A stretch of DNA of 64,000 bases from Punctularia strigosozonata HHB-11173 SS5 (lineage: Eukaryota > Basidiomycota > Agaricomycetes > Corticiales > Punctulariaceae): positions 544,314-608,313 of the forward strand of contig NW_006767449.1 of NCBI RefSeq assembly GCF_000264995.1, given 5' to 3'. The notes below the pieces were generated by a model. It ran no database searches. It was not told the origin of the DNA and saw only the letters and a program-made list of their open reading frames with translations. Shown here piece by piece: positions 10,492 through 34,249 of the stretch (the first letter of the stretch is position 1; each line of letters starts with the position of its first letter). Position numbers and translations under genes: made by a program.

Positions 10492-11156
10492 CTAATGAGG
10501 AGGTAATTTTGAGGGCGGGAACCTTTGTTCATATATACGCGCATTGGTCCGGGTTGATGATGTTTCCTCAGCCCCAGTCCGCCGCTTCCCTGCATTTCCC
10601 CACAGACAGGTCAGGCTTCTTTTCATATGCACCGTCTATCTACGCACCCTAGCCTCGGTGCCATCCCTTATAACGTGTCACCTGATGAGAGAGAATGCAG
10701 CGCCGAGAGATGCAGAGACTGGCAGAAACCGCACCTGACCGTTCCGCAACAAGGCCATATGCGCTTGGGACCAAGACGTGAGTTCCGATTACAAACTTCC
10801 CTGAGAGATATGTCCAGGACAGCGGCTTAGCACTCACGAGCCGCGGTACGCGAGTCGGCATCCGATATGCACCTATCTTGTCATGTCAGATGGCCCAACC
10901 GAGGGAGGCCCCGCTTATGCAGACGGGACGGCGTTGGGTGTGACAGAAGGCCCCGCCTCACCGAGTCCGTGTTGCTTTTGCGTCGCGAGCGGATCTCCGG
11001 GGATTTTCATGCGCCGATCCTTGGAGGAATGTTGACGGCTTCGAGCATACCAGAGATATAACGAGGTCCAATCAAGCTGCACGATGCAGGTTGCAGAACG
11101 TTGCAATCCAACGGCAGCTAACGCCGACGGCAGCTCGGCGCTGCCCGTCCAATAGT

Positions 11157-11162
11157 CACGTG
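11157..11162. promoter_or_regulatory. CACGTG in unit A leader
   Basis: This palindromic E-box-like site lies in the context AGTCACGTGCGATTCA. The same context recurs upstream of every family X copy in the array. Confidence 0.5.
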
Positions 11163-11190
11163 CGATTCATTGAACTAACTTGAGTAGAGA

Positions 11191-11901
11191 GTGACCTCTT
11201 CGATGTGTCAGGCGAAGGGAAACACGATGGATGCATATGTCGACCGACTCGCATTCAACAACGACGCATCGACAGAACCAAGTTCCTGCGGCCCAGGCCT
11301 CGCATTGGCGTTGATGCGCAGGGATTGGCATTTCGGGATTGGACTGATTGCCCTCTTCCCGACAACGAAGACGAGCGGTCCATGGAGCTGGATGATCCTC
11401 GCATGCTCGCCAAAGAGAGAACTATCCAAAATTTGTTGTATGATGACCGGCGCCATGGAGGCCGCATTCGCGAACCTGCGTTACCGGTGACACCGCGTCC
11501 GCGACGTTCCAGAGTACCCGCAATAGCAGCTTAGAGTCCAGTTTCGGCACATCACCCGTAACGCCCTCGACGGGCTCGAACAGTGGTACATCGAAGTCGG
11601 TCGTTACGAGAACTGCATCGTGAGGGCCATGCATTCGTTCCCTCTGTGGGTCGTGAAGTTCGCCATACTGGAACAATGGGAAGATGAGAACCCTGTGTTC
11701 CTGAACGGCGCCAGGGACGAATTGGTCGAATGGGATGAGACCACGAGACGATGGCGACACTTGGTCCTCGACCATTACCGGTGGATCCCGGCTGAAGAGC
11801 TAGAGATCCGACCCTCAGACAACGAAGCAAATGCTATCATCGTAAACGGGACGCGTAGCGACCCTATACCCCGTCGGGCGTTGATTGTCTACGCTGATTG
11901 A
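11191..11901 (+). pseudogene. Family X copy 2, 5'-truncated and frameshifted
   Basis: Homology starts inside the large third exon, just before the cysteine pair (here CICRPT), and continues through RPRPRIGVDAQG. The frame then changes once near 11525. The second half reads VQFRHIT...GRYENCIVRAM...RWRHLVLDHYRWIP and stops at 11901. The first Cys of the second pair (GRCENC in other copies) is Tyr here. With no first or second exon, no start and a frame change, this is a decayed copy. Confidence 0.8.
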
Positions 11902-12528
11902 ATCTATAATTCTTGTTCTGCTGTACATTCATGCACCGAATCGGCTGCATCATTGCCCAACGTTCGTGTTGAGTACTGCACACTGCTCATAAGGTTGGCA
12001 AACTGGTAAGTGCGCCAATAACTGGATACGTGGAATTGTCGGATACTCCTTCACAAAACTTAGGGCGACCGTTCATGTATCTAGTATATGATAGGTCTTT
12101 GTATCAAATCAAATCCGTGCCGTCCACCCGATGAAAGCGTCTGGCAGGAGTCTCACGGGGGCGTTGAGAACAGGTGAATTTCACCTGTGCGTTCACTCGA
12201 AGGCTGAGAGATATGGCCAGACAAGCGGCTTCACGCTGACAAGTCGCAGTATGCGAGTTGGCTCCGAATACACATATGTATGCACTATCATGTTGTGTCA
12301 GATGCCTCACTGGGGAAGGTCCTGATTCTGCAGACGGAGCGGTGGAGCGGTCTCGCTGAGTTTCTCTTGCTTTTATGTCGTATGTGGATCTACGGGATCT
12401 CTCATGCGCCATTCTTTGTAGGATTTTGACGGCGTCGAGCATACTAGGGACGTAGTGAGGACATGTAGCTGCACGATCCGTCGATCGTCGATTAGAACGT
12501 TGCCGACGGGCCGCCTACATGCCATAGT

Positions 12529-12534
12529 CACGTG
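12529..12534. promoter_or_regulatory. CACGTG in unit B leader
   Basis: The site lies 156 bp before the family X start at 12691, in the conserved context AGTCACGTG. Confidence 0.5.
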
Positions 12535-12690
12535 CTATTCAATGAACTTACAGCAGCTTACGTTGTTGTCTGACTTGATGTCTCTGCACAATCGCGGTAC
12601 CTTCTGCGTCTCAACTGCAGTTGAATTGTGGTCTCTGAACTGTGCTAGAGTGACCGTTGCCGTACCAGCCCAAAACAGCGTCTACGACTT

Positions 12691-14213
12691 ATGTCCGCGA
12701 TAGAGCCACAACTTCACGCTGCTACATCGAGCGCAGCTCGTTCACCCGAACGTCGCGCATCCGCCTATGCGGGTTGGCGCGATGCAGTCGCTAGCCTTTG
12801 GAGAGAGCCCACAACAATTCATACCACTGGTGAGCATGACTATAGTTTTTCTTAGTTCGGATGAACTAGGTGCTCACTGCCACCTAGAATCACGAACCAT
12901 CCGCTGCACCCCCCGACGCCGCGCCAGTCGTCCGAAGAAACCCGCCACGCGCAGCGCGAGCTCAGAAACGAACTCGGTCTCCCGACGTTGCCAAAGAAAG
13001 TCGCAAGCGTCGTCGCGGGGACGATGTGCCGCCAGTGAAGACGACAGTATCGCGCCCATCATCGGGGCCAAGGAGAAAGCGTACCAGACGTATGGCGGCG
13101 GAAGTGCACAAGATGCGGTGCGAGGCCGAAGACGCCCGGAGACTCGTCGCGGAGACGCATGAGACGATAACGCTAGCTGCTGCCAGTGTCAAGAACCTTG
13201 TACAGGACATCGATATGATCAGCGCCCATCGCCCGACTCCAACCTTGCGCCAGGAGGCCTCGAGAAACAATGCCGTTATACCTACACCGTATGTCCACTA
13301 TTACACTATCTGATTTTCATCTGCTAACGCTACTGATATCAGCAACTATATCGATGGTGACGCCTCGCCTCAAGATCTCAGACTGCCACAACCCGCGATT
13401 CCGAAACCACCCAGTATCAAGACGGGCATCGCCGCCTCAAGACCGACACAGACCGTTGGTTCAACGGATACCTGCGGGTTATACTCCGCTACAGACAGCC
13501 GTGCTCTTGTCAAGGCCCTTTCTGACCGGGGGAACATCGGTGGTTGCACATGCCGACCGACTCTCGTACAAAGGAGACGCATCGACAAAACGAAGTTCCT
13601 GCGGCCCAAAGTTCGCATTGGCATTGACGCGCATGGTGTGCCGTTTCGAGACTGGGACGAACGTCCGTTGGAAGAGGAAGACGACGACGACGACGACGAC
13701 GCAGGTGAGATCCGATGGCACAAGCGGGAGAGCATCGTCATCTCTAAACTCTACGATCACGACCGCGGGTACGTTCTCGAGCCCACGCTGCCTGTATCGC
13801 GTCGCCCGCGACGTCGCAGGGTGTTTGCAAAGCAGTTTAGAACCCAATCTCGTCACATAACTCCGGTGGTCTTCGACGCATTGGAGGGGTGGCACGTAGA
13901 GATGGGGCGATGCGAGAACTGCCTCATCAGGGCCATGCGGTCGTTACCATTGTGGGTTGTTGGCGTGAAGTCGACCCACCACGAGGGATTTGAGGATGGG
14001 TCGCCCGTCTTCGTCAATGCCGCAAGGGACGAGATGGTCGAATGGGATGCAGACATTAGGGGATGGCGACATCTGATACTCGACTATTATCGGTGGATAC
14101 CTGTCGAAGAACTGGAGGTCAGACCCTCCGACAGCGAGGCCAATCCCAACATTGTAAACGGGACGCGTAGCGTGCCCCTCCCGCTACCGGCATGCATTTT
14201 TTACGACGATTAA
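12691..14213 (+). pseudogene. Family X copy 3, frameshifted in exon 2
   Basis: The ATG at 12691 gives MSAIEPQ; the internal ATG used by copy 4 is ATA here. Relative to copies 4 and 5, about five bases are missing early in exon 2 (near 12895), throwing the N-terminal part out of frame. Downstream the family frame is good: PRRKRTRRMAAEVHKM helix, an intron near 13289, the third-exon cysteine pair at about 13545, a GAC repeat giving a run of Asp (13680-13701), GRCENCLIRAM and WRHLILDYYRWIP, stop at 14213. It could be a recent pseudogene or be translated from an internal start. Confidence 0.65.
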
Positions 14214-14520
14214 TTATATTCTGTCTGTCGCTAGCGATCTCGTCATGTAATATTCACTGTAGAACGCACACAATCGGTTCGATGTTCCTGTGCCTTCGGC
14301 CTGATTGCGAACCTTATCAAGATGCATTCGCCTATGGGTGACCGTACATTGAGCGATCTCTCGTCATATTGATTGCCAGTTACAGCCACGGTCCTGTCTT
14401 CCAGCCCCAAGGCCCACGACACGATGCATATTAGCTTCTATGTTGATCACAGTGGCCCGGAGCCGGCGGCCTTCGATTAGCGAGATTATCGCATTCGCGG
14501 ATCTCTCTCAAGTTTCGCCA

Positions 14521-14730
14521 ACCTCAATCTCGATAGCTAGGGAAAAAGGGAACGTTAGTGGCCGGCATTGACTGCGAGGAAAAGGAGGGGCGCACATCGG
14601 TGGTATATGAGGGTATAAATCGAGTATCGCGCACGTGCAGTCGGTGATGGCATACGAGTACGGCGTGCGTATATTCAATCGTCTGAACCTTGCAAGAACC
14701 AAGACGCGAGTTGCGATCACAGACTTGCCT
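14521..14730. other. Junction between units B and C
   Basis: Sequence with no gene between the decayed spacer of unit B and the leader of unit C. It has a CTTGCAAGAACCAAGACG stretch like that preceding the unit A leader. Confidence 0.3.
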
Positions 14731-15059
14731 GAGAGATATGTCCAGGCAAGCAGATTAACACTACACGAGTCGCAGTATGCGACTCGGCTCCCGATATGTG
14801 CATGCACTATCGTGTCGTATCATATGCCTGACCGGAGGCGTTGGACGTGAAAGCGCGGTCTCGCGGAGTTCGCCTTGCTTTTACGTCGCGTGCGAATCCC
14901 CAGAAACTTGTTTGCGCCAATCTCTGAAGGGTTTTGGAGGCGTCGAGTATACTAGGGACATAGCCCCGTCAAGAAAAGTTGTACGATGCAGGCAGCAGCA
15001 GGTTGCAGAACGTTGCAACTTAAAACTCGACGGACTCTCGACGGCCCCTATGCCGTAGT

Positions 15060-15065
15060 CACGTG
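15060..15065. promoter_or_regulatory. CACGTG in unit C leader
   Basis: The site lies 164 bp before the family X start at 15230, in the context AGTCACGTGCAATTCA. Confidence 0.5.
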
Positions 15066-15229
15066 CAATTCAATAAACTTACACCGTTGATGTCTGACTT
15101 TGACTCTCTGCACAACAAGTTTACGCTACCTTCTGCGTCTCAATTGCAGCTCAATTGTGTTCTCTGAACTGTGCTAGAGTAACCGTTTCCTTACTCAACC
15201 TAATACGGCGTCCACGACTTTTGTCCGCG

Positions 15230-16748
15230 ATGGAGCCACAACTTCACGCTACCACATCGAGCGCAGCTCGTTCACCCGAACGTCGCGCATCTGCGTATGC
15301 GGGCTGGTGCGATGCAGTCACTAGCCTTCGGAGAGAGCTAAAACCGATTCATACCACTGGTGAGCATGTCGCCAATGTTTTTACTTCAAGTGAACGGGGT
15401 GCTCACCGCCACTTAGAGCCGCAAACCCGTGCATCCGCTGCACCGACCGATGCCGCGCCAGCCGTCAGAAGAAACCCGCCTCGCGCTGCGCGAGCTCAGA
15501 AACGCCATCGATCTCCCGACGTTGCCAAAGAAAATCGCAAGCGTCGTCGCGGGGACGATGCGCCACCCCTTAAAACGACAGTATCGCGCCCATCATCGGG
15601 GCCAAGGAGAAAGCGTACCAGACGTATGGCGGCGGAAGTGCATAAGATGCGATGCGAGGCCGAAGACGCCCGGAGACTCGTCGTGGAAACGCATGAGGCG
15701 ATAACGCTAGCTACTGCCAGTGTAAAGAATCTTGTACAGGACATCGATACGATCAGCGTCTATCGCCCGACTACATCCTCGCACAAGGAGGCCTCTAGGA
15801 ACGATACTGCAAACCCTACACCGTAGGTTCACAATCCACCCTTTGTTTTCTACCAGCTAATGTGATGGTATCAGCAACCATACCGGTGGTGACGCCCCGT
15901 CTCAAGACCTCAGACCCGGGCAATCCGTGAACAAGGAACCACTTGATATTGAAGCCGCCATCGCTGCCTTTAAACAGACGCAGCTGGTTGGTTCAACGAA
16001 TATATGCCGGTCGTATTCCGCTACAGACCGCCGTGCTCTGGTCAAGGCCCTTTCTGCTCTAGGGATCATCGATGGTTGCACATGCCGGCCGACTCCCGAT
16101 CAACAGAGACGCATCAACAGAACGACGACGCTGTTCCTGCGGCCTAGACCTCGCATTGGCGTCGACGCGCAGGGTGTGCCGTTCCAAGACTGGAGCGATT
16201 ACCCGATTGAAAAAGATGACAACCCGAACAAAATCCGATGGATCAAGCGAGAGAGCATCATTGAGCGTCACCTTTACGATGATAACAATAATCACAATAT
16301 AAACCACAGTCTCGAACCTACGCGGCCGGTAGCGCTGTATCCGCGACGTCGCAGGACGTTCGCGAAGCAGCCCGAAATCCAATTTCGACACATCCCTCCG
16401 CATATCCTCGATACGCTGGAAGCGTGGCACTTAGAGTTGGGGCGATGCGGGGATTGCATCGTTAGGGCCATGCGGTCGTTCCCGTTGTGGATTGTGGGCG
16501 TGAAGTCGACCTTGCCGGAGGGATATGAGTATGGAGCGCCTATTTTCGTCAACGCCGGGAAGAACGAGATAATCGAATGGGACGACGATATTAGGAGCTG
16601 GCGACATTCAGTACTCGATAATTATCGGTGGATACCTGCTGAGGAACTGGAGGTCAGACCCTCAGACAGAGCGGCCGATCCCAACATTGTAAATGGGACG
16701 GTTAAGGTGCCCATCCCGCTACCGGGTTGGATTCCCTCCGAGGGTTGA
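15230..16748 (+). CDS. Family X copy 4, apparently intact; unknown function
   Basis: Three exons give about 469 residues. Exon 1 starts MEPQLHATTSSAARS at 15230 and ends at 15359. Intron 1 is 15360-15416 (57 bp). Exon 2 (to 15822) is Ala/Arg/Pro-rich with RKRRRGDD and PRRKRTRR, likely nuclear signals, then a charged helix (AAEVHKMRCEAEDARRLV). Intron 2 is 15823-15874. Exon 3 has the CTCRPT pair, RPRPRIGVDAQGVPFQDW, a basic RRRRTFAKQ patch, GRCGDCIVRAMRS (second Cys pair), FPLWIVGVKS and SWRHSVLDNYRWIPAEEL. The two Cys pairs could bind a metal, which is inference. The reading frame is open across the predicted joins. Family Y copy 1 begins 850 bp downstream on the same strand. Confidence 0.75.
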
Positions 16749-17369
16749 ATATGTTCTTTCTGCTGCGAGCGTTACTGTCATGCAATATCGTAGACCCAGC
16801 TGTACACAATTGAAACAACCTGGACTGTCGATGTAGGTTCGTAAACCGCCTTTATCCCTTCAAGCAGACGGTCGTTCTGGCGCGGCCTGCTGCCTATTGG
16901 GGAGTTTGGGACGAGCCCAGCGTTACATAATCCCATCGCCAATTCATTCCCTCCTCGGATGACTGCCAGCTGCAGCGAGTCACCTATCCTTCGGCGCCAA
17001 AGCCCCCGTTGCAGATCAGTTTCTACGTCGATATCATGGTCCAAAGCCGGCGCCCACGGCGCATCGTTCACTGTATCACCATTTGCGAAGATCTCCCCGG
17101 TTCCCTACGTTCAGCACAGGTGGCCGAGATCCAAGCACAGCGATGGAAAGACAGATTGTTCAGAGATATGCTATACAGCACTAGCGCCGCGAATGCTGCA
17201 CCTACTGCCTATCGAGAGTATGCCAGGGGAGGTCAAGAAAGCTCGTGAGTGTCTCAATAGAATGCTGTCGCATTGTCGGTACGCACTCAGCTCGACAACC
17301 CACAGCGCTGCATCGTTCGGTACATCAGTCGAATCAGCTCAATACTACCCACCGCGCGCCACCCAGCCT

Positions 17370-17429: not shown

Positions 17430-17532
17430 TCGCGACCACGCTCGCTAAACGCCACCCGTGATTGTCCTGTGGAAGAGGGCACAACAGGCCATGAAGGACG
17501 TGCGGCCCTAGGCATTGCAACGTCCCTGGACG

Positions 17533-17597: not shown

Positions 17598-20500
17598 ATG
17601 GCATCCGAACCGTATATCACCCCGGAACGTCCGGAGCTCCTCCAAACTCCTGACTATATACACACCAAAGAGTCACTTCTTCAGAACTGGAATGGTGCCT
17701 ACCTGCACTCTTACGGGGGAGGCTTCCCCGATGTGACGTTCGCATCGGGTCCAAGCAAGTGGTCCATCTACCGCAGTGGTGAATTTCGAAGGCCCCGCGC
17801 CGAGCCGAGTCCAGGTGAGTGAAGTCTACATGTGAATGCAACTGGGTTTTCACGGATGGTGGTAATTCAGTGAAAACCCGACTTCCCGTTCTGGCTGAAG
17901 TTGAGAGAGTATCTGATAGAGGTCGGGAAATAATGACGATCACCAGGATTGCGAGGTCTGCCAAGATATATGTGCGTGCAACCCACCTCCGTTTCTTATC
18001 GGAGTCTGACCAACCGCACAGGTCAATGGCCAATCGTTAGAGCTCGATGTTCCCTTCCCATTGTCAGAGAACGCAATCGTCCTCATTGACGGCCTAAGTG
18101 CGCAAGCGTTTTTTAGGAATAACTCGTGGCTCATGTATGCTGTCCCTCCGTCAGAATATGCATACCGCAGTCTTGAGAAGGTTCACGCCCCATCTCAATA
18201 TGGCCTCGTCAAGTCGCAGGTTGCTATTGGAGGTCAAGGGGGTGAGTAGTAGCAGTACCCAGTTGTGATCTTCGCTTACCGGCCTTCCAGACATCGCGGC
18301 CGCAGCGTTTCAGGTTGGCCAGGGGGCGAGAATGAGTTGCGCTGTGGCACTTCAGCGTCTCACCGTGCGACCCACTCACGTGAACCAGATCGCCATGCAA
18401 CTGAGCGTTTGGAAGAACTTTCGCCATCCAAACATAACGCCCTTTCTGTCCTGGTATGCCGAAGATATCGCCGACGACGACGAGATCGGACCAACCACGA
18501 CAGCCAAAGCATCCATGCTCATTCGTCAGTGCATGAACCTCACTGTGTTAGAACGTGCCTTGGGACTAATATTGCCCAAGGCGTGGTTACACCTGTAGTG
18601 CTCTTCCATATCGACGTCCGTCACGACAAGCTGAGGCGAACCACGCGACAACGGGTCTAGCAGGCTGGCATGTGGCAAACCGGACGAACCAGCGACGATG
18701 GTGCCCTCGCTCCGAACGTCCACCTCCGCTTCAGAAACCTGGCTACGGGCAGCCAGCGCGTCATGCACATATCCCCAATCCGGGACAGGAGCGGCGACGC
18801 CGTCGCCAGGCCAAACTGTCGCATCGCGGGAAAGGTCGGATTGGGGGGTAACGGAGCGAGTCCAGGGGCGATCTTGACCAGCCTCATCGATGGCCGCGCC
18901 GCCGTCGCTTTCAGCGTCGTAATCAGTTTCGCCCTCGGCGTCGGCGCTGCTTCCCCTCTCGCTCGCCGTTCTTGCTACAATGCCGTTCGGAACATCGACG
19001 CCGCGCACCCTCATGCGACCGCGAACGTCCACGCTGCTCTTCATGATCGCTTCGCCGTCGACGATCACGTCTTGGCCCACGTCCAACTTGCCCTGCACGT
19101 CCACATCGCCCACCACGTCCATGTCGCCGTTCAACTTAACGTTGCCAGTGACAAGGACGTCGCCCCGAACGACGAGGTTCCCGCTGACCACCAGATTGCC
19201 AGGGATGTGCCAATCTCCGTTGTAATGACGCCCGCGATAAGGTTCGACGTCATCACCGTCATGAACGGGAATCTGGTCGTTGGCGCCGTGTTCCTTGACC
19301 TCGCTGTGGTCCTCGTCGCTATGATCGGAAACATCGCGGTCCGTCGATTGGTAGGAGTCTGCCTCGTTGTCGTCCTCGTCGCCGCCTTGATTACTGCTAT
19401 TTTCGGAAACATGATCGCGTTCCGTCGATTGATAGGACTCGGTATCTGACACAGAGGAGGTCTCCATCGATTCCTGCTCTGTTTCGATGTGCTTTCTTGA
19501 GAGGAGGTCGGCGACCAGGGGGTCATTATAGGAGAGCATGTCCAGGAGTTGATTGTTGATCATCCATGGGTCATTGCGTGCAGACACAAGGGTCGCGCGC
19601 TCTGCGCAGGACTCCTTGAGTAAGCTTCTCAACAGCTCCTCAGCTAAATATATACGTTAGCGCCCACAACCTCGTACCATAGACGAGAAAGGATTACCCG
19701 AATGAGGATTGCCAGGTTCCTTGATATCTCCCATATTGACTTTGTCAATCCGCGACTTCCTGGCCCGAATTTGTTGCTCGAAAGTGGCACGGGCATGGGA
19801 TTGCGGGATCTTGAACGGTTCCTTAGCAAACATCCTGAAAAATCGGCATTATTTCCCGATGATTTCAACGATGAGGGTGTATACTCACACATAGAACAAG
19901 ATCGCTCCGACCCCGAACGCCTCGCTGGACGCGTTGTAGTGATGGCTCAGGACCTCTGGTGGAGCCCAAGCAGCGGTTCCTTCCTGGGGCTGTAGGCAGA
20001 ATTAGGTCGCGATGCTAAATCACGGTGAGCATTCGTACATATGGACGCTGGTCATCTTTCGGCTTAAGGACGGACTTGCTGAAGTCGCATAATTTGACTG
20101 TGATCGCATCGAGAGATTTGTCGAATACAAGAACGTTCTGTGTGATATCACCATGAGACGTTGCGAACAGCAGCAACGAAGACCAGGAACGTACCGCGGG
20201 CTTGACATCGCGATGGAATATGCCTCTGAAATGGATGTACTATGGAAAACGATTTAGCCCTTGCACCGGATTGGTGTGCGATAAATCTACCTCAAGGCCG
20301 TCGATGATCTGCTTCAGGACGATGCGAGCGAACTCTGGGGCTATAGACGGGTTCGTTGTCAGCGACAATGACTTCTACGGATGTGGCACGACTCACATAG
20401 CGATCCCTTACTTTTGACATATTGGTCTAGATCACCGTACCGCGGTCGGCGCGTCCGGGACAGGATATGGATACATCAAGGGCCGACGTCTCTGGGGTAG

Positions 20501-20694
20501 CGGGCCTCGTCACGTCGCCCGCAGACAAGGCTCCCCGACGTTCTACACGTCAGGCAGCTCGTGCCCAACGAGGCGAGGCGGTTGGGAACGATACGGCCGA
20601 AGACTCGGAGGGCGAGACGGCCGGTACCGATAACAAGCGAAGCAAGGCGACGCGCCCTGGTGCATACAAGAAATTTAAGACCGGGAAGGAGTGA
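17598..20694 (+). pseudogene. Family Y copy 1: kinase-like gene interrupted by an inverted segment
   Basis: From ATG 17598 (MASEPYITPERPELL) the N-terminal domain and the kinase N-lobe read normally to about 18597 through several introns: VPFPLSENAIVLIDGLSA, then VGQGARMSCAVALQRLTV and HPNITPF. The expected VAIK lysine is Gln (VALQ). From about 18600 to 20443 the rest of the kinase domain, the acidic linker and the beta-solenoid are present but on the opposite strand. The last part (20467-20694, ending RPGAYKKFKTGKE) is again on the plus strand. As arranged, it cannot encode the full protein. On its own strand the inverted segment retains HRDVKPA|N and DFS. Confidence 0.8.
18600..20443 (-). 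other. Inverted 1.84-kb segment inside family Y copy 1
   Basis: Read on the minus strand it holds, in order, the kinase C-lobe exons (HRDVKP near 20210, CDFSKS near 20080, TAAWAPPEV near 19970), the final-exon start (ELLRSLLKESCAERA near 19640), the acidic linker with two SYQSTERD motifs, and the solenoid (near 19210-18985). Both junctions fall where a few bases (GC/GG) could be shared between the joined sequences. Confidence 0.85.
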
Positions 20695-21265
20695 CATACA
20701 TCTCAATGATAGCCGAACGGAACGCTCGTTTCCTTTTCTCCTTCTCTTTGGCTTTCCCACTCGCCCCTCTTCCTATAAACTGGACACACGGACTTGTCCG
20801 ACACTCCTTCTCAAAACTTAAGACGGCCGTTCATGTATCTGGTATACGATAGGTCTTTGATCCAAATCAAATCCGCGTTGTCCACCCAATGAATGAGTCT
20901 GGCAGAGGCCTCACGGGGGCGTTGAGAACAAATGAAATTCACCTGTGCGCTCGCTCGAAGGCTGAGAGATATGGCCAGGTAAGCGGCTTCACACTGACGA
21001 GTCGCAGTATGCGAGTCGGCTCCCAATATATGCCTGCACTACTGTGTTGTGTCAGATGCCTCACCGGTTCTGCGGACGGAACGGCGGCGCGGTCTCGCTG
21101 AATTCGTCTTGCTTTGATGTCGCGTGCGTATTTCCGGGAACTTTCATGCGCCAATCTTTGGAGAATTTTGACGGCGTCGAGCATACTAGGGACATAGTGA
21201 GATATCTAGCTGCACGATCAGGACGTTGCAACCCGACGGCCTCGGCGCCGCCTATATGCGGTAGT

Positions 21266-21271
21266 CACGTG
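21266..21271. promoter_or_regulatory. CACGTG in unit D leader
   Basis: The site lies 155 bp before the family X start at 21427, in the context AGTCACGTGCAACTCA. Confidence 0.5.
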
Positions 21272-21426
21272 CAACTCAATGAACTTACACCGTTGATGTC
21301 TGACTTTGACTCTCTGCACAACAACTTAACGGTACCTTCTGCGTCTCATTTGCAGCTTGACTGTGTTCTCTGAACTGTGCTAGAGTAACCGTTTCCTTAC
21401 TCAACTTAAAACGGCGTCCACGACTT

Positions 21427-23319: not shown

Positions 23320-26300
23320 ATGGCATCCGAACCATACCTCGCTCCGGAACGGCCGGAACTTCTCGAGAGTCCTGACTACTTCCGCAACAAAGAGTTACTT
23401 CTTCGGAAATGGAACCGTGCCTACCTGCGCTCTTGTGTGGCAGGCTTCCCGGATGTGACGTTCACATCGGATTCGCCCAAATGGTCCATCTACCGCAGTG
23501 GTGAATTTCGAAGGCTTCGTGCTGATCCGACTCCAGGTGAGTAAAGCCCGGGCCCAGAAGCAGCCAGATTTCTGACAACCTGTTACGTTTCAGTGGAAAC
23601 CCGAGTTCCTGTTCTAGCCAAGGTTGAGCAGATCACGGTTGAAGGTCGGGACATAATGACAATCACCCAGATCGCGAAGCCTGCCCGAATAAGCGTGCGT
23701 GCAACCCTCCTCTATTTCCTACCAGAGTCTCAACAACCCCATAGGTCAATGACAGGTCGTTGAAGCTCAATCTCCCGTTTCCGCTATCAGAAAACGCCAT
23801 TGTACTCATTGACGGTCTAAGTGCGCGACTGTCGCTGAAACCGTGATTGGTGGCTCATAAGTATCGGTCCATCTATCAGGATATATGTATCGCAGTCTTG
23901 ACAAGATTGAGGCCCCATCGCACGCCCCTCTATACGGCATCATTGAGTCGCAAATGAAGAATGGAAATCAAGGGGGTCAGCAGTAGCACTTCCGAATTGT
24001 GGTCCTTGCTTACCGTCCTTCCAGTGGTTGCGCGCGCAGCGATCCGGGTTGGCCAGGGAGCGAGCATGTCTTGCGCCGTGGCAGTCAAACACGTTACCGT
24101 GGGACGCGCTGACGTAGACCGGGCCGCCATGCAGCTGAGCGTGTGGAAGAGCTTTAGCCACCCGAACATAACCCCTTTTGTGCACTGGTATGCCGAAGGG
24201 AACCAAGGGGTCGAAGAAAAGCAGGGCATCAAAGCGTTCATACAAATTTGTCAGTACATTGATTTTAACGTGTTGATCCGGGCTCTGCGGCTAACAGTAT
24301 AGAAGGTGTGGTCACGCCCGTAGCGCCGCAAGGTGATCTGCACCAGTATATCCAAAGACACGGATCGCTTTGTAAGTTGTGATATAGGTGCAGAAGTCAT
24401 TATCCCTAACAATGAATCGTCCATAGACCCAGAGTTCGCTCGCCTCGTCGTGAAGCAGATCATCGATGGCCTCGAGGTAAATTTCTCGCGCAATCCGATG
24501 CAGGGGCTAAATCGATTTCTATAGTACATACATTGCAGAGGCGTATTCCATCGCGATGTCAATCCCGCGGTGCGTTGGTAGTCCTTGTCGCTTCTGTTCA
24601 TACCGTCTCATGCTAATACCATACAGAACGTTCTTGTATTCGGCAACACTCCCGAGGCGATAACGGTTAAGTTATGCGACTTCAGCAACTCGGTCCTTAA
24701 GCCGAAAGACGACGAGCGTCGATATGTACGAGCGTTCATCATATAATGGCACCGCGAGCTAACTCTTCCTACAGCCCCAGACAGGAACCGCTGCTTGGGC
24801 TCCACCAGAAGTATTGAATAATCACTATAACGCGTCCAGCGAGGCGTTCGGGGTCGGAGCGATCCTGTTCTATGTGTCAGTATACACCCGCATCATCGAA
24901 ATCTTCGGAACATGACGATCTCTAGGCTGTTCGCTAAGGAACCGTTCAAGATCCCGCAATCCCATGCTCGTGCCACTTTCGAGCAACAAATTTGGGCCAG
25001 GAAGTCGCGGATTGACAAAGTCAATATGGAAGATATCAAGGAACCTGGCAATCCTCATTCGGGTAATCCTTTCTCGTCTATGGTCCGAGGTTGCGGGCGC
25101 TGACGTATATATCTAGCTGAGGAGTTGTTGAGAGGCTTACTGAAGGAGTCCTACGCAGAGCGCACGACCCTGGTGTCTGCACGGAATGACCCATGGATGA
25201 TCAACAATCGACTTCTGGACATGCTCTCCTACAATGACCCCCTGGTTGCAAACCTCCTCTCGCAACAGAACGTCGAAACAGAGCAGGTCTCGATGGAGAA
25301 CTCCTCTGTGTCAGATGTCGAGTCCTACCAATCGACGGAACGGGATCACGTTTCTGACAATATCAGCAATCGGAGCGGCGACGCGGACGATAACGAGCCC
25401 GACTCGTATCAATCGACGGAACGCGATGCTTCCGGCAACAGCGACGAGGACCACAGTGAGGCCAAGGAGAACGACGCCAACGACCAAACTCTCGTCCCCG
25501 AGGAAGCTAACGCTGACCGTTATCGCGGACGTCATTACCACGGGGAGTGCAACATCCCTGGCAATCTGGTGGTCAGCGGAAACCTCGTCGTTCGAGGCGA
25601 CGTCCTTGTCACTGGCAACGTTAAGTTGAACGGCGACATGGACGTGGTGGGCGATGTGGACGTGCAGGGCAAGTTGGACGTGGGCCAAGACGTGATCGTC
25701 GACGGCGAAGCGATCATGAAGAGCAGCGTGGACGTTCGCGGTCGCATGAGGGTGCGCGGCGTCGATGTTCCGAACGACAGTGTACCAGGAAATGCGAGCG
25801 AGAGGGGAAGCAGCGCCGACGCCGAGGGCGAAACCGATTACGACGCTGAAAGCGACGGCGGCGCGGCCATCGATGAGGCTGGTCAAGATCGCCCCTGGAC
25901 TCGCTCCGTTACCCCCCAGTCCGACCTTTCCCGCGATGCGACACCTTGGTCCGGCGACGGCGTCGCCGCTCCGGTCCCGGATTGGGGATATGTGCACGAC
26001 GCACTGGCTGCCCGTAGCCAGGTTCCCAAGGCGGAGGTGGACGTTCGGAGCGAGGGCACCATCGTCGCTGGTCCGTCCGGTTTGCCACAAGACCCGTTGT
26101 CGCATGTTCCGCCTGTGCCTGTCGCGACGGACGTCGATATGGACGAGCGGCCGGCGCGTCCGGGACAGGATATGGATGCATCCAGGGCCGACGTCTCTCC
26201 GATCACAGGGGTAGCGGGCCTCGCCACGTCTCCCGCAGACAAGCCTCCCCGACGTTCTGCACGTCAGGCAGCTCATGCTCAGGCGGTTGGGAACGATGCG

Positions 26301-26399
26301 GCCGAAGACTCGGAGGGCGAGACGGCCGGTACCGATAACAAGCGAAGCAAGTCGACGCGCCCTGGTGCATACAAGAAATTTAAGACCGGGAAGGAGTGA
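23320..26399 (+). CDS. Family Y copy 2: degenerate protein kinase with beta-solenoid tail
   Basis: About ten exons. The N-terminal region (MASEPYLAPERPELLESP) is of unknown type. The kinase domain spans roughly 24025-24890: glycine loop VGQGASMSCAVAVKHV with the VAVK lysine, SVWKSFSHPNITPF, GVFHRDVNPA|N (catalytic-loop Lys replaced by Asn), CDFSNS (DFG to DFS), TAAWAPPEV and SSEAFGVGAILFYV. The last exon (about 25116-26399) closes the kinase fold (ELLRGLLKESYAERTT), then has an acidic linker with two SYQSTERD repeats, 11 hexads of a beta-solenoid (25551-25775), a disordered acidic part and a basic tail (NKRSKSTRPGAYKKFKTGKE). A stop follows GLSARLSLKP near 23845 and no clear splice avoids it, so activity is doubtful. 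The kinase assignment is from motifs; the subfamily is unknown. Confidence 0.65.
25551..25775 (+). other. Bactofilin-like hexapeptide beta-solenoid domain
   Basis: After GECNIPG the protein reads in six-residue steps: NLVVSG NLVVRG DVLVTG, NVKLNG DMDVVG DVDVQG, KLDVGQ DVIVDG EAIMKS, SVDVRG RMRVRG. Hydrophobic residues occupy positions 2 and 4 and Gly position 6 of most hexads. This pattern is known from bactofilins and other short beta-helix proteins and predicts a compact solenoid that may self-assemble. The other Y copies have the same amino-acid sequence wherever it is visible. Confidence 0.7.
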
Positions 26400-26982
26400 C
26401 ATACATCTCAATGATAGCCGGACGGAAGACTCGTCTCCTTTTCTCTCTATCTCTCTCTTTTTCCTCTTCCTATAAACTGGACACACGGACTTGTCCAACA
26501 CTCCTTCACACGAATGAAGACGACCGTTCATGTATCTGGTATACGATATGGCTCTGATCCAAATCAAATCCGTGTTGTCCACCCAATGAATGAGTCTGGC
26601 AGAGGCCTCACGGGGGCGTTGAGAACAGGTGAAATTCAACTGCCCAGTTTTCATGCATTGAGGATCCGGTTCAGGTTGACAACCAAACATGCATGATATT
26701 CTCGGTATACCTGCAGCCTTGCTCGAGTTTGTCGTGCTGAACACTGATTTGTCTGTCTTGTCCTTTCCCGCTGCGCTGAGTGTCGTTCGTGAGCGTCAGA
26801 GGGGAGAACGTGGCGGTGCACTGCCGGAAACAGCAAGCATGTGATTGGCTGGCGGGTCTCTCCGGTCTCCTCCCCCCCTTGGACCTCCGCACTCGCTCAG
26901 TTGATATTCCTGTATCCTCGTTCCCCTCTTCTCTTGGCCTAACTCTCCAGTACTTGTCGGGTAGCCTGAGGAAATACGCATC

Positions 26983-27892
26983 ATGTCCGCGGGCTTGATC
27001 CAGAAGACGTTCGCGCGCAACGCGCACATCAACAACGCCTTGGCGCGCGCGGCTGTTAGGAGGGTCGCTGCTGCTCATGGATTGCAATGTGCGTCTAACC
27101 CGGCGCTTGGCTCACTGCGAACGCTCTGACACAAAAATCTCGCTTGCTCGGGCGGTGCACGATACGATCTGGTTGGACGTCGAACATTCAGCACGACGAA
27201 ACGCGGCCTCCAGCAGCACTGAATATGTCCCTGGTGGACGTGAGTTCAATCCACCCTCAATACGAAACAAACTTGAACCTTGATGCGTTGTAGCCATCAT
27301 CCGGGGCACCGTGAACGATGGCCTCCCCTTCCCTCCGCCTTCCAAGACCCACGGCTCATACCACTGGTATGTTTGTTGGTCGATCGGACCTCATGCGCAT
27401 GCGGTTTCTGATAACCGTCGATTATAATAGGGCTTTTGAGCGCTTGCTCTCTGCCGGCCTCGTCCCACTGACGGTCGCCGCTTTCGTCGTTTCGCCGACT
27501 CAGTACCCCCTCCTCGACGGCATCCTCGGCGTCTCACTCGTCATGCACTCTCACATTGGCGTAAGTCACGATTCGCTCCTTCCAACCTCCCAATGTCTCT
27601 TTCTACCGTGTCCATCACGGGGTACCGGGTGATTTGGGAGTGCAGAGCACTGACGCTGGTCGCTCATGTTAGTTCGACTCCATCGTGGTGGACTACCTCC
27701 ACCCGCGCAAGTTCCCCAAGCTTGGGCCGCTCGTGTCATGGACCCTCCGCGCAACGACCGTTGGTGTCCTGGTCGGCGTTTACCAGTTCAACACCAACGA
27801 CATTGGTGAGCCGCCTCCTTCCCATGTGAGAACCCAACTGACGTTTGTGCACAGGCCTTACCGAGCTGATCGCCAAGGTCTGGCACGCGTGA
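26983..27892 (+). CDS. SDH4: Succinate dehydrogenase membrane anchor subunit (cytochrome b small subunit)
   Basis: This subunit anchors complex II in the inner mitochondrial membrane and helps bind heme b and ubiquinone. Six exons are read: the start MSAGLIQKTFARNAH at 26983 is an amphipathic, Arg-rich targeting peptide; further exons encode IIRGTVNDGLPFPPPSKTHG, SYHWAFERLLSAGLVPLTV and ILGVSLVMHSHIG|FDSIVVDYLHP. The last motif holds the heme-ligand His and the Asp-Tyr of the quinone site. The final exon is LTELIAKVWHA, stop at 27892. The coding potential looks intact. It lies in a unique block (about 26645-28185) between the oppositely oriented array units D and E. Confidence 0.9.

Positions 27893-28331: not shown

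Positions 28332-28334
<3 letters not shown>

Positions 28335-28378
<44 letters not shown>
28335..28378 (+). repeat. (GA)n microsatellite
   Basis: About 44 bp of GA repeats lie 40 bp downstream of the family Y copy 3 stop. The equivalent place in unit D has a short, interrupted CT run. Confidence 0.95.
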
Positions 28379-28379
<1 letters not shown>

Positions 28380-28416
28380 AAACGAGCGTTCCGTCCGGCT
28401 ATCATTGAGATGTATG

Positions 28417-31400
28417 TCACTCCTTCCCGGTCTTAAATTTCTTGTATGCACCAGGGCGCGTCGACTTGCTTCGCTTGTTATCGGTACCGGCCGTCTCGCC
28501 CTCCGAGTCTTCGGCCGCATCGTTCCCAACCGCCTCGCCTCGTTGGGCACGAGCTGCCTGACGTGTAGAACGTCGGGGAGCCTTGTCTGCGGGCGACGTG
28601 ACGAGGCCCGCTACCCCAGAGACGTCGGCCCTGGATGCATCCATATCCTGTCCCGGACGCGCCGGCCGCTCGTCCATATCGACGTCCGTCGCGACAGGCA
28701 CAGGCGGAACATGCGACAACGGGTCTTGTGGCAAACCGGACGGACCAGCGACGATGGTGCCCTCGCTCCGAACGTCCACCTCCGCTTCAGAAACCTGGCT
28801 ACGGGCAGCCAGCGCGTCATGCACATATCCCCAATCCGGGACAGGAACGGCGACGCCGTCGCCAGGCCAAACTGTCGCATCGCGGGAAAGGTCGGATTGG
28901 GGGGTAACGGAGCGAGTCCAGGGGCGATCTTGACCAGCCTCATCGATGGCCGCGCCGCCGTCGCTTTCAGCGTCGTAATCAGTTTCGCCCTCGGCGTCGG
29001 CGCTGCTTCCCCTCTCGCTCGCCGTTCTTGCTACAATGCCGTTCGGAACATCGACGCCGCGCACCCTCATGCGACCGCGAACGTCCACGCTGCTCTTCAT
29101 GATCGCTTCGCCGTCGACGATCACGTCTTGGCCCACGTCCAACTTGCCCTGCACGTCCACATCGCCCACCACGTCCATGNNNNNNNNNNNNNNNNNNNNN
29201 NNNNNNNNNNNNNNNNNNNNNNNNNNNNNNNNNNNNNNNNNNNNNNNNNNNNNNNNNNNNNNNNNNNNNNNNNNNNNNNNNNNNNNNNNNNNNNNNNNNN
29301 NNNNNNNNNNNNNNNNNNNNNNNNNNNNNNNNNNNNNNNNNNNNNNNNNNNNNNNNNNNNNNNNNNNNNNNNNNNNNNNNNNNNNNNNNNNNNNNNNNNN
29401 NNNNNNNNNNNNNNNNNNNNNNNNNNNNNNNNNNNNNNNNNNNNNNNNNNNNNNNNNNNNNNNNNNNNNNNNNNNNNNNNNNNNNNNNNNNNNNNNNNNN
29501 NNNNNNNNNNNNNNNNNNNNNNNNNNNNNNNNNNNNNNNNNNNNNNNNNNNNNNNNNNNNNNNNNNNNNNNNNNNNNNNNNNNNNNNNNNNNNNNNNNNN
29601 NNNNNNNNNNNNNNNNNNNNNNNNNNNNNNNNNNNNNNNNNNNNNNNNNNNNNNNNNNNNNNNNNNNNNNNNNNNNNNNNNNNNNNNNNNNNNNNNNNNN
29701 NNNNNNNNNNNNNNNNNNNNNNNNNNNNNNNNNNNNNNNNNNNNNNNNNNNNNNNNNNNNNNNNNNNNNNNNNNNNNNNNNNNNNNNNNNNNNNNNNNNN
29801 NNNNNNNNNNNNNNNNNNNNNNNNNNNNNNNNNNNNNNNNNNNNNNNNNNNNNNNNNNNNNNNNNNNNNNNNNNNNNNNNNNNNNNNNNNNNNNNNGCTA
29901 AATATATACGTTAGCGCCCACAACCTCGTACCATAGACGAGAAAGGATTACCCGAATGAGGATTGCCAGGTTCCTTGATATCTCCCATATTGACTTTGTC
30001 AATCCGCGACTTCCTGGCCCGAATTGTTGCTCGAAAGTGGCACGGGCATGGGATTGCGGGATCTTGAACGGTTCCTTAGCAAACATCCTGGAAAATCGGC
30101 ATTATTTCCCGATGATTTCAACGATGAGGGTGTATACTCACACATAGAACAGGATCGCTCCGACCCCGAACGCCTCGCTGGACGCGTTGTAGTGATGGCT
30201 CAGGACCTCTGGTGGAGCCCAAGCAGCGGTTCCTTCCTGGGGCTGTAGGCAGAATTAGGTCGCGATGCCGAATCACGGTGAGCATTCGTACGTATGGACG
30301 CTGGTCATCTTTCGGCTTAAGGACGGACTTGCTGAAGTCGCATAATTTGACTGTGATCGCATCGAGAGATTTGTCGAATACAAGAACATTCTGTGTAATA
30401 TCACCATGAGACGTTGCGAACAGCAGCAACGAAGACCAGGAACGTACCGCGGGCTTGACATCGCGATGGAATATGCCTCTGAAATGGATGTACTATGGAA
30501 AACGATTTAGCCCTTGCACCGGATTGGTGTGCGATAAATCTACCTCAAGGCCGTCGATGATCTGCTTCAGGACGAGGCGAGCGAACTTTGGGGCTATGGC
30601 CGATTTGTTGTCAGACACAATTACTTCTGCGCCTCTAGCACCACTTACAGAGCGATCCCTTGGTTATGACGTACTGTTTCAGATCACCGTGCGGCGCTGC
30701 GGGCGTGACCACACCTTGGGAATGGTTAGTCCCGTTCCCACACGTTGGGATTGATGTACTAACCAATCGGCATGGACACTTCGACTTTCCCGTTCTCTTC
30801 GGCTTCTTCGTCTTCTTCGTCTTCTTTGATATCCTCGGCATACCAGTGCAGAAAAGGTGTTATGTTCGGATGGCTGAGGCTCTTCCACACGCTCAGCTGC
30901 ATGGCGGTCTGGTCAACGCAGGCGGGTCGCACGATAAGGTGTTTGACTGCCACGGCGCAAGACATGCTCGCTACCTGGCCAAACCGGATCGGCACAGACC
31001 CAACGACTGGAAGGACGGTAAGCAAGGAGCTCCATTCGAAACTGATACTACTGACTCCCTTGACCTCCATTCACAACCTTTGACTCGGTGATACCGTACT
31101 GAGAGGCGCGTGGTGGGGCCTCAACGTTGTCAAGGCTGCGATACATATATCCTGATATAGGGACGACCCATATGAGCCACCAGTCACAGTTTCAACAACA
31201 GCCGCGCACTTAGACCGTCAATGAATACGATGTCGTTTTCTGAGAGCGGGCACGGGAGATTGGGCTTTAACGGCATGCCGTTGACCTATACCATTGTTGA
31301 GACTCCGGCAGAAAACAAAGTAGGATTGCACGCACGCTTAGTCGGGCAGGCCTCGCGATCTGGGTGATCGTCATTATCGGCCGGCCTCCAATCGTGGTTT

Positions 31401-31710
31401 TCTCAACATCGGCAATAACAGGAGCTCGGGTTTCCACTGAACGGTAGCAAATTGTCAACATCTCGTTGCTCCCAGGACCGGATCTCACTCACCTGGACTC
31501 GGATCAGCACGAGGCCTTCGAAATTCACCACTGCGGTAGATGGACCATTTGGGCGAATCCGATGTGAACGTCACATCCGGGAAGCCTGCCACACAAGAGC
31601 GCAGGTAGGAATGGTTCCATTCCCGAAGAAGTGACTCTTTGTTGCGGAAGTAGTAAGGACTCTCGAGAAGCTCCGGCCGTTCCGGGGCGAGGTATGGTTC
31701 GGATGCCATG
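28417..31710 (-). pseudogene. Family Y copy 3: kinase-like gene with beta-solenoid tail, contains an assembly gap
   Basis: The start is MASEPYLAPERPELLESP at 31710, preceded by TATAAAGGAGCGCG. The kinase part has FGQVASMSCAVAVKHL (the second glycine of the loop is Val; the Lys is kept), HPNITPF, GVVTPAAPHGDL, HRDVKPA|N, CDFSKS and TAAWAPPEV. One base fewer than in copies 1 and 2 near 30023 (GAATTGTT versus GAATTTGTT) shifts the frame of the RATFEQQ exon, unless it is a sequencing error. As in copy 2, the block after LSAR ends early (near 31190). The C-terminal part reads normally from the solenoid (29178) to KKFKTGKE at 28417. About 0.5 kb between them is hidden in the gap. Confidence 0.6.
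29180..29896. other. Assembly gap (717 N)
   Basis: A run of N lies inside the last exon of family Y copy 3. By comparison with copies 1 and 2, about 520 bp should be missing, so the gap length is not an exact measure. Confidence 0.98.
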
Positions 31711-32434
31711 TTCGTAGCTGGGATGTTGGAGGCAATAGCAAACGAAAGACACAAACTCGCGCTCCTTTATAGGCCTGGCGACGTTGCATTGCCAATGGCC
31801 ACACCTCTGTCGTGGCCTTGCTTCTAATTGTGCCCTCTTCCACAAGGCAATTACGGGTGATGTTATAAGTGGAGGTGGTGGTCGCATTGTCTAAGAAGCC
31901 GTGGGGCACGTGATGAATCCACTGCCAGAGGTTTCATACTGTGCGATAATCGCTGAACACTGTGGACTAAGTACTAGTGCATAACGACGAGCGATACCGT
32001 GTCAAGGCATTCTGTGCGGCCGCGTGATACCAGTACCGTGCACATACCATATTTCTATGCAGGCAGTCTGTCACCCTCTGGCCACTCGCTTTTCCCTCGG
32101 CCACTTAAAGTCAGGGCAGTGGCTGAGTCTTTTACGAGAGGGCGTTGGTGCAGGGCAGGGCAAATCCTGGCTACTACAGCACGGCTTACTCCGCGTCTCA
32201 CGTAAGTTTTCGTCAGTGAATATACACACGTCGTTATTTGACAATAGTTTTGTTGCATGTTTTCCGCTGTGTAAGTATGAAAAGCCCTCGGGTCGCAGGT
32301 GCAACTCGACGGAGTTCAGGACGGAGGTGCAGGAGCCAGAATACATGATGATGTATGTTCTTCGACATTGACACGATTGTGTGCGAAGTCTATAATATTA
32401 CATGACAATACCGCTCGCGACAGACAGAATACGA
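31711..32434. other. X-Y spacer of unit E with Y promoter
   Basis: No gene. It carries the Y TATA box (31766-31771), one copy of the CTTGGACAATG-like motif region (near 31885-31905, minus) and a CACGTG at 31907-31912. Confidence 0.45.
31766..31771 (-). promoter_or_regulatory. TATA box of family Y copy 3
   Basis: TATAAA on the minus strand, followed by GGAGCGCG, 56 bp before the start at 31710. Confidence 0.6.
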
Positions 32435-33949
32435 TCAATCGTCGTAATCAATCCACGCCTGCAGCGGGAGGGGCACGCTGCGCGTCCCGTTTACGATGTT
32501 GGGATTGGCCTTGCTGTCCGAGGGCCTGACCTCCAGTTCTTCGACAGGTATCCACCGATAATAGTCGAGTACCAGATGTCGCCATCCTCTAATGTCTTCG
32601 TCCCATTCCACCATCTCGTTCCTTGCGGCGTTGACGAAGACGGGAGACCCATACTCAAATCCCTCGTTGCGGGTCGACTTCACGGCAACAACCCACAATG
32701 GTAACGACCGCATGGCCCTGATGAGGCAATTCTCGCATCGCCCCAGCTCTACGTGCCACCCCTCCAATGCGTCAAGGACCACTGGAGTGATGTTTCGAAA
32801 TTGAGTTCTAGGCTGCTTTGCAAAGACTCTGCGACGTCGCGGACGGCGTGATACCGGCAGCGTTGGCTCGAGGGCATGGCCTATACTGCGGGTGTCATCG
32901 AAAAGCTTATTTTCGACGATGCTCTCGCGCTTCAGCCATTTGATCTCATTCGGGTCATCGTCTTCTTCCAACGGGTATTCGGTCCAGTCTCGAAACGGTA
33001 GACCCTGCGAATCGACGCCTACGCGAGGTCTGGGCCGCAGGAACGTCGTTTTGGCAATGCGTCTCCGTTGAAGGGGGGTCGGTTGGCATGTGCAACCATC
33101 GTTGACGCCTAGGTTCAAAAGAGCCTTGGCCAAAGCACGGCGATCTGAAGCGGAGTAAGACCCGCAGGTATTCGCCGAGCCAACTGACTGCGTCGGTTTC
33201 AAGGCAGCGACGACGGTCTGAATATCGGGTGGCTGCTTGATCGCGGATTGTTCGGGTCTGAGATCTTGCGGCGAGTCACCACCGGTATGGTTGCTGATAT
33301 CATAAGCATCAGTCGGTGGAAAACAGAGGGTGGAATGGTGGACCCACATTGTTGCACTGACAGTATCGCTCCTCGAGACCTCCTCGCGTGAGGATGCAGT
33401 CGGGTGAGAGATGCTGATCATATTGATGTCCTGTACAAGGTTCTTAACACTGGCAGCAGCTAGCGATATCGCCTCATGCGTCTCCGCGACGAGTCTCCGG
33501 GCGTCTTCGGCCTCGCACCGCAGCTTGTGCACTTCCGCCGCCATACGTCTAGTACGCTTTCTCCTTGGCCCCGATGATGGGCGCGATACTGTCGTCTTCA
33601 CTGGCGGCACATCGTCCCCGCGACGACGCTTGCGATTTTCTTTGGCGACTTCGGGAGATCGAGGGCGTTTCTGAGCTCGCGCAGCACGTAGCGGGTTTCT
33701 TCGAATAGCTGGCGCGGCGTCGGTCGGTGCAGCAGATGCACGGGTTTGCGGCTCTAAGTGGCGGTGAACACCCCGTTCACTTGAAGTAAAAACATTGGCG
33801 ACATGCTCACCAGTAGTATTAATCGGTTTTAGCTCCCTCCTAAGGCTAGTGACTGCATCGCACCAGCCCGCATGGGCGGATGCGCGACGTTCGGGTGAAC
33901 GAGCTGCGCTCGATGTGGTAGTGTGATGTTGTGGCCCCATCGCGGACAT
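32435..33949 (-). CDS. Family X copy 6, open throughout; unknown function
   Basis: From ATG 33949 (MSAMGPQHHTTTSSAARS) the frame is open for 504 codons to 32435, straight across both intron positions of the family. Intron 1 (GTGAGC...CTTAG, 57 bp) has good splice sites and its removal keeps the frame. The donor of intron 2 (GTATGT in other copies) is changed to ATGTGG, so it may be retained or use a nearby GT. Signature parts are complete: PRRKRTRRMAAEVHKL helix, GCTCQPTPLQRRR, RPRPRVGVDSQGLPFRDW, RPRRRRVFAKQ, GRCENCLIRAMRSLPLWVV and WRHLVLDYYRWIPVEEL. Confidence 0.75.
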   Translation of the reverse strand: MSAMGPQHHTTTSSAARSPERRASAHAGWCDAVTSLRRELKPINTTGEHVANVFTSSERGVHRHLEPQTRASAAPTDAAPAIRRNPLRAARAQKRPRSPEVAKENRKRRRGDDVPPVKTTVSRPSSGPRRKRTRRMAAEVHKLRCEAEDARRLVAETHEAISLAAASVKNLVQDINMISISHPTASSREEVSRSDTVSATMWVHHSTLCFPPTDAYDISNHTGGDSPQDLRPEQSAIKQPPDIQTVVAALKPTQSVGSANTCGSYSASDRRALAKALLNLGVNDGCTCQPTPLQRRRIAKTTFLRPRPRVGVDSQGLPFRDWTEYPLEEDDDPNEIKWLKRESIVENKLFDDTRSIGHALEPTLPVSRRPRRRRVFAKQPRTQFRNITPVVLDALEGWHVELGRCENCLIRAMRSLPLWVVAVKSTRNEGFEYGSPVFVNAARNEMVEWDEDIRGWRHLVLDYYRWIPVEELEVRPSDSKANPNIVNGTRSVPLPLQAWIDYDD

Positions 33950-34092
33950 AAGTCGTAGACACTGTCTTGGGCTGGGTATGGCAAACGGTCACTCTAGCAC
34001 AGTTCAGAGAGCACAATTTAACTGCAATTGAGGTAGATACCGTTGTTGTGCAGAGAGTCAAAGTCAGACACCCAGGTATGTTCATTGAATCG

Positions 34093-34098
34093 CACGTG
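34093..34098. promoter_or_regulatory. CACGTG in unit E leader
   Basis: The site lies 144 bp before the family X start at 33949, in the same AGTCACGTG context on the minus strand. Confidence 0.5.
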
Positions 34099-34249
34099 AC
34101 TACGGTACATATACAGTAGGCGGCGCCGAAGCCGTCGGGTTGCAATATCTCTCAGCCTTCAAGCGCATGCATCATCTCTGTGAAGGAACGGAAACTGCAC
34201 TGCGTCGCATCGCGATATCTCGGCTTGCGACTACTTTGTGGCACTATCA

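Follow-up and report, generated by a model that had tools for sequence, protein, structure and literature searches.

The locus described here raises the question of why two genes should be copied again and again as a pair. It lies in a stretch of 64,000 nucleotides from the basidiomycete Punctularia strigosozonata HHB-11173 SS5 (G000:C17:544314-608313; this whole stretch is hereafter called the window), within a genome of 33.57 Mb in 32 contigs, and consists of a repeated block in which a gene of a family termed X is followed by a kinase gene termed Y. The block is real and recurs outside the window. The interpretation favoured in this article is that X and Y probably form a dedicated nuclear kinase-partner cassette, the two genes being kept linked because matched partners work together.

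The linkage of X and Y was examined within this one genome, which was searched for X twice, with an exon query from the window copy X-D and with a domain query from contig C10. Diverged as they are, the two queries lead to one and the same set of 28 copies in which the C-terminal domain is open, distributed over contigs C17, C10, C19, C6 and C4, together with a relic in the window (unit A) and five divergent or broken relatives, all on C17. When the Y kinase domain was used as query, many X copies proved to have matching pieces behind them on the same strand. Y was modelled with a purpose-written spliced protein-to-DNA aligner, the later rounds of which were trained on the same copies; in these models the first exons are unreliable, K07 and K17 hold one stop each, and six tails extend past the sequence examined. 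With the window copy Y-D as query, the 18 sites behind an X that were aligned elsewhere in the genome all gave spliced-alignment scores of 291-560, against 72-123 for the reverse strands of these sites and 69-115 for 32 unrelated flank pieces under the same settings. Altogether, 21 of the 28 X copies are followed by a Y on the same strand (20 modelled pairs and the broken window copy Y-C), and 21 of the 22 modelled or mapped Y genes have an X upstream, so that the association of X homologues with Y homologues, which the original prediction had put forward as its first check, held when run inside this genome. The exception is K43 (C17:472272-469833), before which two whole-genome X searches found no X, the stretch itself having been read only in part. 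The count of 22 omits a kinase relic behind the X copy L027 and a kinase piece at C17:89.4 kb; the latter, with a divergent X at C17:92.4 kb, is a candidate further pair outside the counts. On C10 the units stand in tandem arrays with a spacing of about 6 kb. The C4 unit (L047, C4:233001-243000) lies among three separate frames with MYND zinc fingers.

The two genes also have a common history. Their phylogenies were compared for 20 of the 28 X copies, leaving out XB, XC, X0, L011, L013, L023, L026 and L027, which have no intact modelled Y, and the orphan kinase K43. Median identity between paralogues is 44% for X and 34% for Y, and across the 20 pairs the protein distances of X and Y are strongly correlated (Mantel r 0.906, reached in 0 of 9999 permutations; largest permuted r 0.52). 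Maximum-likelihood trees of X and Y agree in their main groups, both of them uniting D with E, 09 with 10, the seven C10 units, 20 with 21, and 06, 07, 08, 12, 15 and 17. Units D, E, 09 and 10 come together in both trees, well supported for Y and weakly (77/82) for X, and the trees are not identical throughout, differing for instance over where 28 belongs and over the order within 06/07/08/12/15/17. The ratio of non-synonymous to synonymous substitution rates (dN/dS) is below 1 in all 18 pairs compared (0.17-0.51 in 12 X pairs and 0.24-0.59 in 6 Y pairs), and both genes are therefore constrained on average. That X and Y duplicated and moved together suggests one working unit. The original prediction had offered either joint work or a block prone to copying as the reason for the repetition, and of these mere copying has become less likely, since the pair has stayed together at such median protein identities (34-44%) and on five contigs.

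On sequence grounds X is best regarded as a family of its own, in none of the libraries searched. Pfam gave no match to X-D at E up to 1 and, for the 28 X rows at E up to 10, no family common to more than two rows; an X profile compared by sequence with solved structures had no significant match, and a predicted structure of the X domain, of middling confidence, had no structure match at E up to 0.001. The alignment of the C-terminal domain (A1, 28 rows) has 31 invariant columns. Its position 9 is cysteine in 15 rows and histidine in 13, and C11, C128 and C131 are present in all 28; as this exchange beside invariant cysteines is the usual look of a zinc site, the domain probably holds a metal, most likely zinc. 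N-terminal to the domain, most X models have basic nuclear-type blocks (recognized by eye) and a helical module, this part being modelled in 25 of the 28. The five divergent relatives on C17 (15375-15938, 487553-488260, 495901-496488, 91769-92437 and 66657-67264), four of which are on the minus strand, show 31-36% identity in their longer matches; of the two that were read, the one at about 495.9 kb keeps both cysteine pairs, and in the other only the second pair was seen. In 18 of the 28 copies the hexamer CACGTG stands upstream of X, and its distance from the gene is often similar.

Y is a protein kinase with additional parts on either side. The window Y matches Pkinase (PF00069) at 118.7 bits against a cut-off of 31.7, and K19, K24 and K08, the other kinases covered by these scans, match it singly at 6e-33 to 2e-47 (115-162 bits). 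The catalytic lysine is present in all 20 paired Y proteins, and the lysine, the HxD motif and the DFG aspartate are all kept in 14. Y-D and Y-E read DFS. All seven modelled C10 kinases read HRD, with DLG in K19 and DFG in the other six. The DFG aspartate is lost in K06, K07, K08, K12, K15 and K17, which form one clade, and the HxD aspartate is lost as well in K06, K07, K08 and K12; judged by these residues, the six (6 of 20 Y) are probable pseudokinases. The N-domain has no match in Pfam or among PDB sequences, and single-query searches, which also miss known members, found it in X-Y clusters only. A basic block, seen by eye, ends nine of the 15 tails that reach a stop (Y-D, K09, K10, K19, K21, K22, K24, K25 and K28), and a run of similar beta repeats is common to the tails of window Y, K09 and K10; on inspection by eye it was not seen in the tails of other Y clades. 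Weak further matches to the beta repeats occur at G000:C17:502275-502775, near an X cluster and outside any modelled unit.

The helical module provides a further tie between the two families. A model of it was built from 25 of the 28 X proteins (L006, L011 and L013, whose N-termini are not modelled, were left out) and scored on 20 of 21 Y tails, that of K28 (26 residues) being left out. The module was found in the tails of K08 (20.7 bits) and K07 (9.7 bits), both of the pseudokinase clade. Among 3800 shuffled tails no score exceeded 8.5 bits, and with 200 column-permuted models the K08 and K07 tails reached at most 6.7 and 4.0. K08 is the top non-X frame among 3172 frames scored for the module, and blastp aligns its tail with the X of L009 at 43% identity over 47 residues. 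A helix common to two linked genes is to be expected of partners that assemble.

Repeated blocks within the window were found by DNA self-comparison and are listed, with the other features of the locus, in Table 1. Identity is 70-96% among X blocks B to E and 64-77% between each of these and A. The three units for which a common order and orientation had been predicted, C, D and E, indeed have Y after X on the same strand, and the X frames described there as open and spliceable are so, as is that of B. Each of these four X genes has two introns, of 52-58 nt in C, D and E, with the first intron of B modelled at 83 nt; X-D is a three-exon gene of about 468 codons that encodes basic nuclear-type blocks, the helical module and the C-terminal domain with its probable zinc site. 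Two more units had been said to carry X alone, and in part this stands: A is a relic in two pieces, with one TAG and with tyrosine for the first cysteine of C-x2-C, and B has no Y. A sixth X, X0, lies outside the region then considered. X0 was found by tblastn (E 3.5e-65, 45% identity), its DNA is 58-66% identical to the other window X copies, and its frame is open, the spliced model having no in-frame stop; a Y downstream of it was not detected, the spliced-alignment score of 106.5 comparing with 114.4 for the reverse-strand control. The remnant before unit B matches sequence just behind the stop of Y-D, and unit B therefore once came after another Y, in a tandem array.

Table 1. Features of the X-Y locus and its surroundings, in window positions
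Feature	Position	Strand	Evidence
X0, sixth and older X copy	2973-4677 (C-terminal domain 4012-4677)	+	tblastn, spliced model
Unit A, relic of X, frame broken	10770-11907	+	self-comparison, tblastn, frames
Remnant of the 3' end of a lost Y, before unit B	12020-12187	+	81.5% identity to 26475-26642
X block B	12020-14285	+	window self-comparison
CACGTG upstream of X-B / X-C / X-D	12529-12534 / 15060-15065 / 21266-21271	.	sequence
X-B, frame open, 2 introns modelled, no Y after it	12691-14213	+	spliced model
X block C	14698-16790	+	window self-comparison
X-C, frame open, 2 introns	15230-16748	+	spliced model
Y-C, 5' part (N-domain and kinase N-lobe)	17598-18601 (modelled to 18463)	+	self-comparison, model
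Y-C, inverted 3' part (kinase C-lobe and tail)	18601-20454	-	self-comparison, model
Y-C, last part of tail, original orientation	20442-20694	+	self-comparison
X block D	20778-23024	+	window self-comparison
X-D	21427-22945 (aligned domain stretch 22262-22942)	+	spliced model, domain alignment
Y-D, intact gene	23320-26399	+	spliced model
CybS (small subunit of succinate dehydrogenase), separating unit D from unit E	26983-27891	+	Pfam PF05328, 2e-44
Y-E, exon pattern as in Y-D	28417-31709	-	self-comparison, model
X block E	34145-32359	-	window self-comparison
X-E, frame open	32435-33949	-	spliced model

The view that Y degrades does not hold in general: it applies to Y-C, may apply to Y-E and fails for Y-D. 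An inversion of about 1.85 kb (18600-20454) cuts through Y-C, the inverted part being about 95% identical to Y-E where both can be read. Y-E contains a run of 717 N (29180-29896) and, at a short stretch of T near 30024, is one base shorter than Y-C and Y-D, which is either a frameshift or an assembly error. Y-D, in contrast, is intact, with 12 exons, about 830 codons, 11 GT-AG introns of 48-59 nt and no in-frame stop; it encodes the N-domain, the protein kinase and, in a long last exon, a beta-repeat stretch (within 25515-25772) and a basic C-terminus. The CybS gene, the protein of which was spliced by eye for the Pfam scan, is unrelated to the X-Y unit, and unit E is inverted on its far side. 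Elsewhere in the window, two adjoining long frames on the minus strand (35839-37113 and 37426-38739), 55% identical in DNA over 842 aligned bases, are a tandem duplicate without a Pfam match, and a 160-base direct repeat (61589-61748 and 63755-63913) has 79% identity.

From the linkage, joint history and constraint on both genes, together with the domain layout, the zinc-ligand pattern, the pseudokinase clade and the helix in two Y tails, we infer nuclear location, contact between X and Y, phosphorylation of X by Y and matched specificity. X would be a partner or scaffold that enters the nucleus via its basic blocks, pairs with itself or with others via the conserved helical module and presents the metal-holding (most likely zinc-holding) C-terminal domain. 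Y would be X's own kinase, one clade of Y consisting of pseudokinases; it too would go to the nucleus, in many cases by means of its basic C-terminal residues, and would act on, or jointly with, the X of the preceding gene. The two would meet in the nucleus, probably through the helical module, where Y would phosphorylate X or, as a pseudokinase, hold it. If each X fits its own Y, selection would keep both genes adjacent, and such matched specificity within the unit would be the simplest reason for a pair so rarely split. The units would have multiplied through tandem duplication, with a few transfers from contig to contig, and would then have undergone birth and death, with Y seemingly lost more often than X.

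Several observations count against a cassette of this kind. Six Y proteins being probable pseudokinases, phosphorylation cannot be the common function, and for genes within about 1 kb of each other congruent trees can by themselves result from joint duplication without common work. Seven X copies lack an intact Y: after L011, L013, L023 and L026 scores are at control level (53-76, with 1.5-2 kb downstream examined), L027 is followed by the relic mentioned above (score 139 versus 64), and the remaining two are XB and X0. Losses are unevenly divided, X being alone in 7 of 28 and Y in 1 of 22, but the difference does not reach significance (Fisher p 0.064). Of the 20 Y tails scored, 18 gave no sign of the module; its match is clear in K08 and weak in K07, another frame scoring 12.7. 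About twenty diverged copies of a pair that is rarely separated are strong evidence for a two-protein unit unnamed in the libraries searched. The set comprises, as a natural series, both active kinases and pseudokinases together with the X proteins that accompany them, and it raises the question of which X binds which Y; if the pairs are truly matched, these would be candidate genes for recognition or drive.

In the main rival explanation, which we regard as unlikely, X and Y are functionally unrelated and duplicate jointly through their closeness in a duplication-prone block. That the block is prone to duplication is shown by the C10 tandem arrays and by the inverted and direct copies in the window, and hitch-hiking of this kind would explain both the congruent trees and the seven X copies without an intact Y; but it has to contend with a pair kept at deep divergence and on five contigs, with dN/dS below 1 throughout and with an N-domain met only in clusters by the searches described, and the presence of the X module in two Y tails is less easily explained. 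That the pair serves selfish ends or recognition, as a toxin-antidote, spore-killer or nuclear allorecognition system, is quite improbable; X and Y would then be a matched poison and neutraliser, and the pairs would diversify because of the cost of a mismatch or a missing partner. The many diverged matched pairs in clusters, the single-member losses and the pseudokinase clade are in keeping with conflict, lone X copies outnumber lone Y copies (with the non-significant p value given above), which a Y that is harmful in the absence of X would predict, and the kinase domain of Spok spore killers, which confers resistance, can be the protective part (PMC6660238 and PMC12693581). Pfam, however, detects no nuclease or other effector domain in X or Y, dN/dS records average constraint and not diversifying selection, and the clusters lie away from the presumed mating-type loci. 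That X and Y constitute an undescribed two-gene nuclear conflict or recognition system, presumably of mushroom-forming fungi, with diversified pairs of matched kinase and zinc protein in which the partner neutralises or licenses the kinase, must be rated as distinctly doubtful; were it so, mismatched nuclei, or spores without a pair, would be harmed. In basidiomycetes, whose somatic incompatibility is called poorly understood, its models being taken from ascomycetes (PMC8229728), such a system would be a candidate for meiotic drive or nuclear allorecognition.

It is highly improbable that X and Y are cargo or genes of a large mobile element, and cargo of a known large transposon, one of the two outcomes named beforehand as refuting the original prediction, found no support. 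Some clusters do lie close to contig ends, at most about 150 kb away (C17 8-16 kb; C10 1.50-1.61 of 1.65 Mb), and the lineage of unit 07, on C4, nests among C17 copies. Against this, none of 51 scored reverse-transcriptase matches, sought genome-wide, falls in a cluster, the nearest being about 22 kb (C4) and 32 kb (C6) away, and Pfam gave no transposon domain in 28 sampled neighbouring frames, other domains having been sought only in such sampled frames of flanks read in part. That scan comprised 29 frames besides CybS, of which window 3224-3802 is X0's own exon and some others overlap. Moreover, the seven C10 units in the trees form one clade, as local tandem duplication predicts, and the ends of the window blocks fall at differing places.

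In the literature searched, largely without subscription papers, no description of such an X-Y pair was recognized, and the resemblances to known systems are partial. Like FunK1 (Pkinase_fungal), which we take to be PF17667, Y is an expanded fungal kinase family; it matches the ordinary Pkinase, PF17667 being absent for window Y at E up to 1 and reaching at best 15.0 of the 24.1 bits needed (E 0.011), in one of three further kinases scanned. The FHA checkpoint kinases Rad53, Dun1 and Chk2 likewise have a separate domain before the kinase, the N-domain of Y resembles FHA by eye, and the K19 kinase is nearest to CaMK-group kinases among solved structures. Pfam gave no FHA match in five N-domain proteins, FHA sequences diverging widely, a sequence-based comparison of the N-domain profile A2 with solved structures gave none either, and none of 11 stretches scored in a genome search for FHA lies within an X-Y cluster. 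The beta repeats in the tails of window Y, K09 and K10 recall bactofilin, although they take up only about 60-90 residues of a tail that is otherwise of low complexity, and window Y scores 19.2 of the 27.9 bits required for PF04519 (E 0.0015).

The HD1/HD2 mating-type pairs of mushrooms are linked, co-evolving nuclear proteins, and X-Y is likewise made up of linked, co-evolving gene pairs; in X-Y, by contrast, no homeodomain was found, and both genes lie on the same strand. X-Y clusters are neither at the homeobox pair on C1 nor at the pheromone receptor cluster on C12. The former (G000:C1:2496349-2497720), on opposite strands, is presumably locus A, and the latter (G000:C12:141735-199840), a large cluster of STE3-type receptors, presumably mating-type locus B. 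As regards Spok, a PD-(D/E)XK nuclease was not found in X by Pfam, and the structure search with the X domain gave no significant match. Spok, of Podospora and Fusarium, is similarly a multicopy fungal family, the protein of which has a coiled coil and a Cys/His cluster besides its kinase domain; it is encoded by a single gene, has a PD-(D/E)XK nuclease, and its kinase is thought to be closer to eukaryotic-like kinases (PMC6660238 and PMC12693581). X-Y, in contrast, has no detected nuclease, carries a kinase of the Pkinase type and is divided between two genes.

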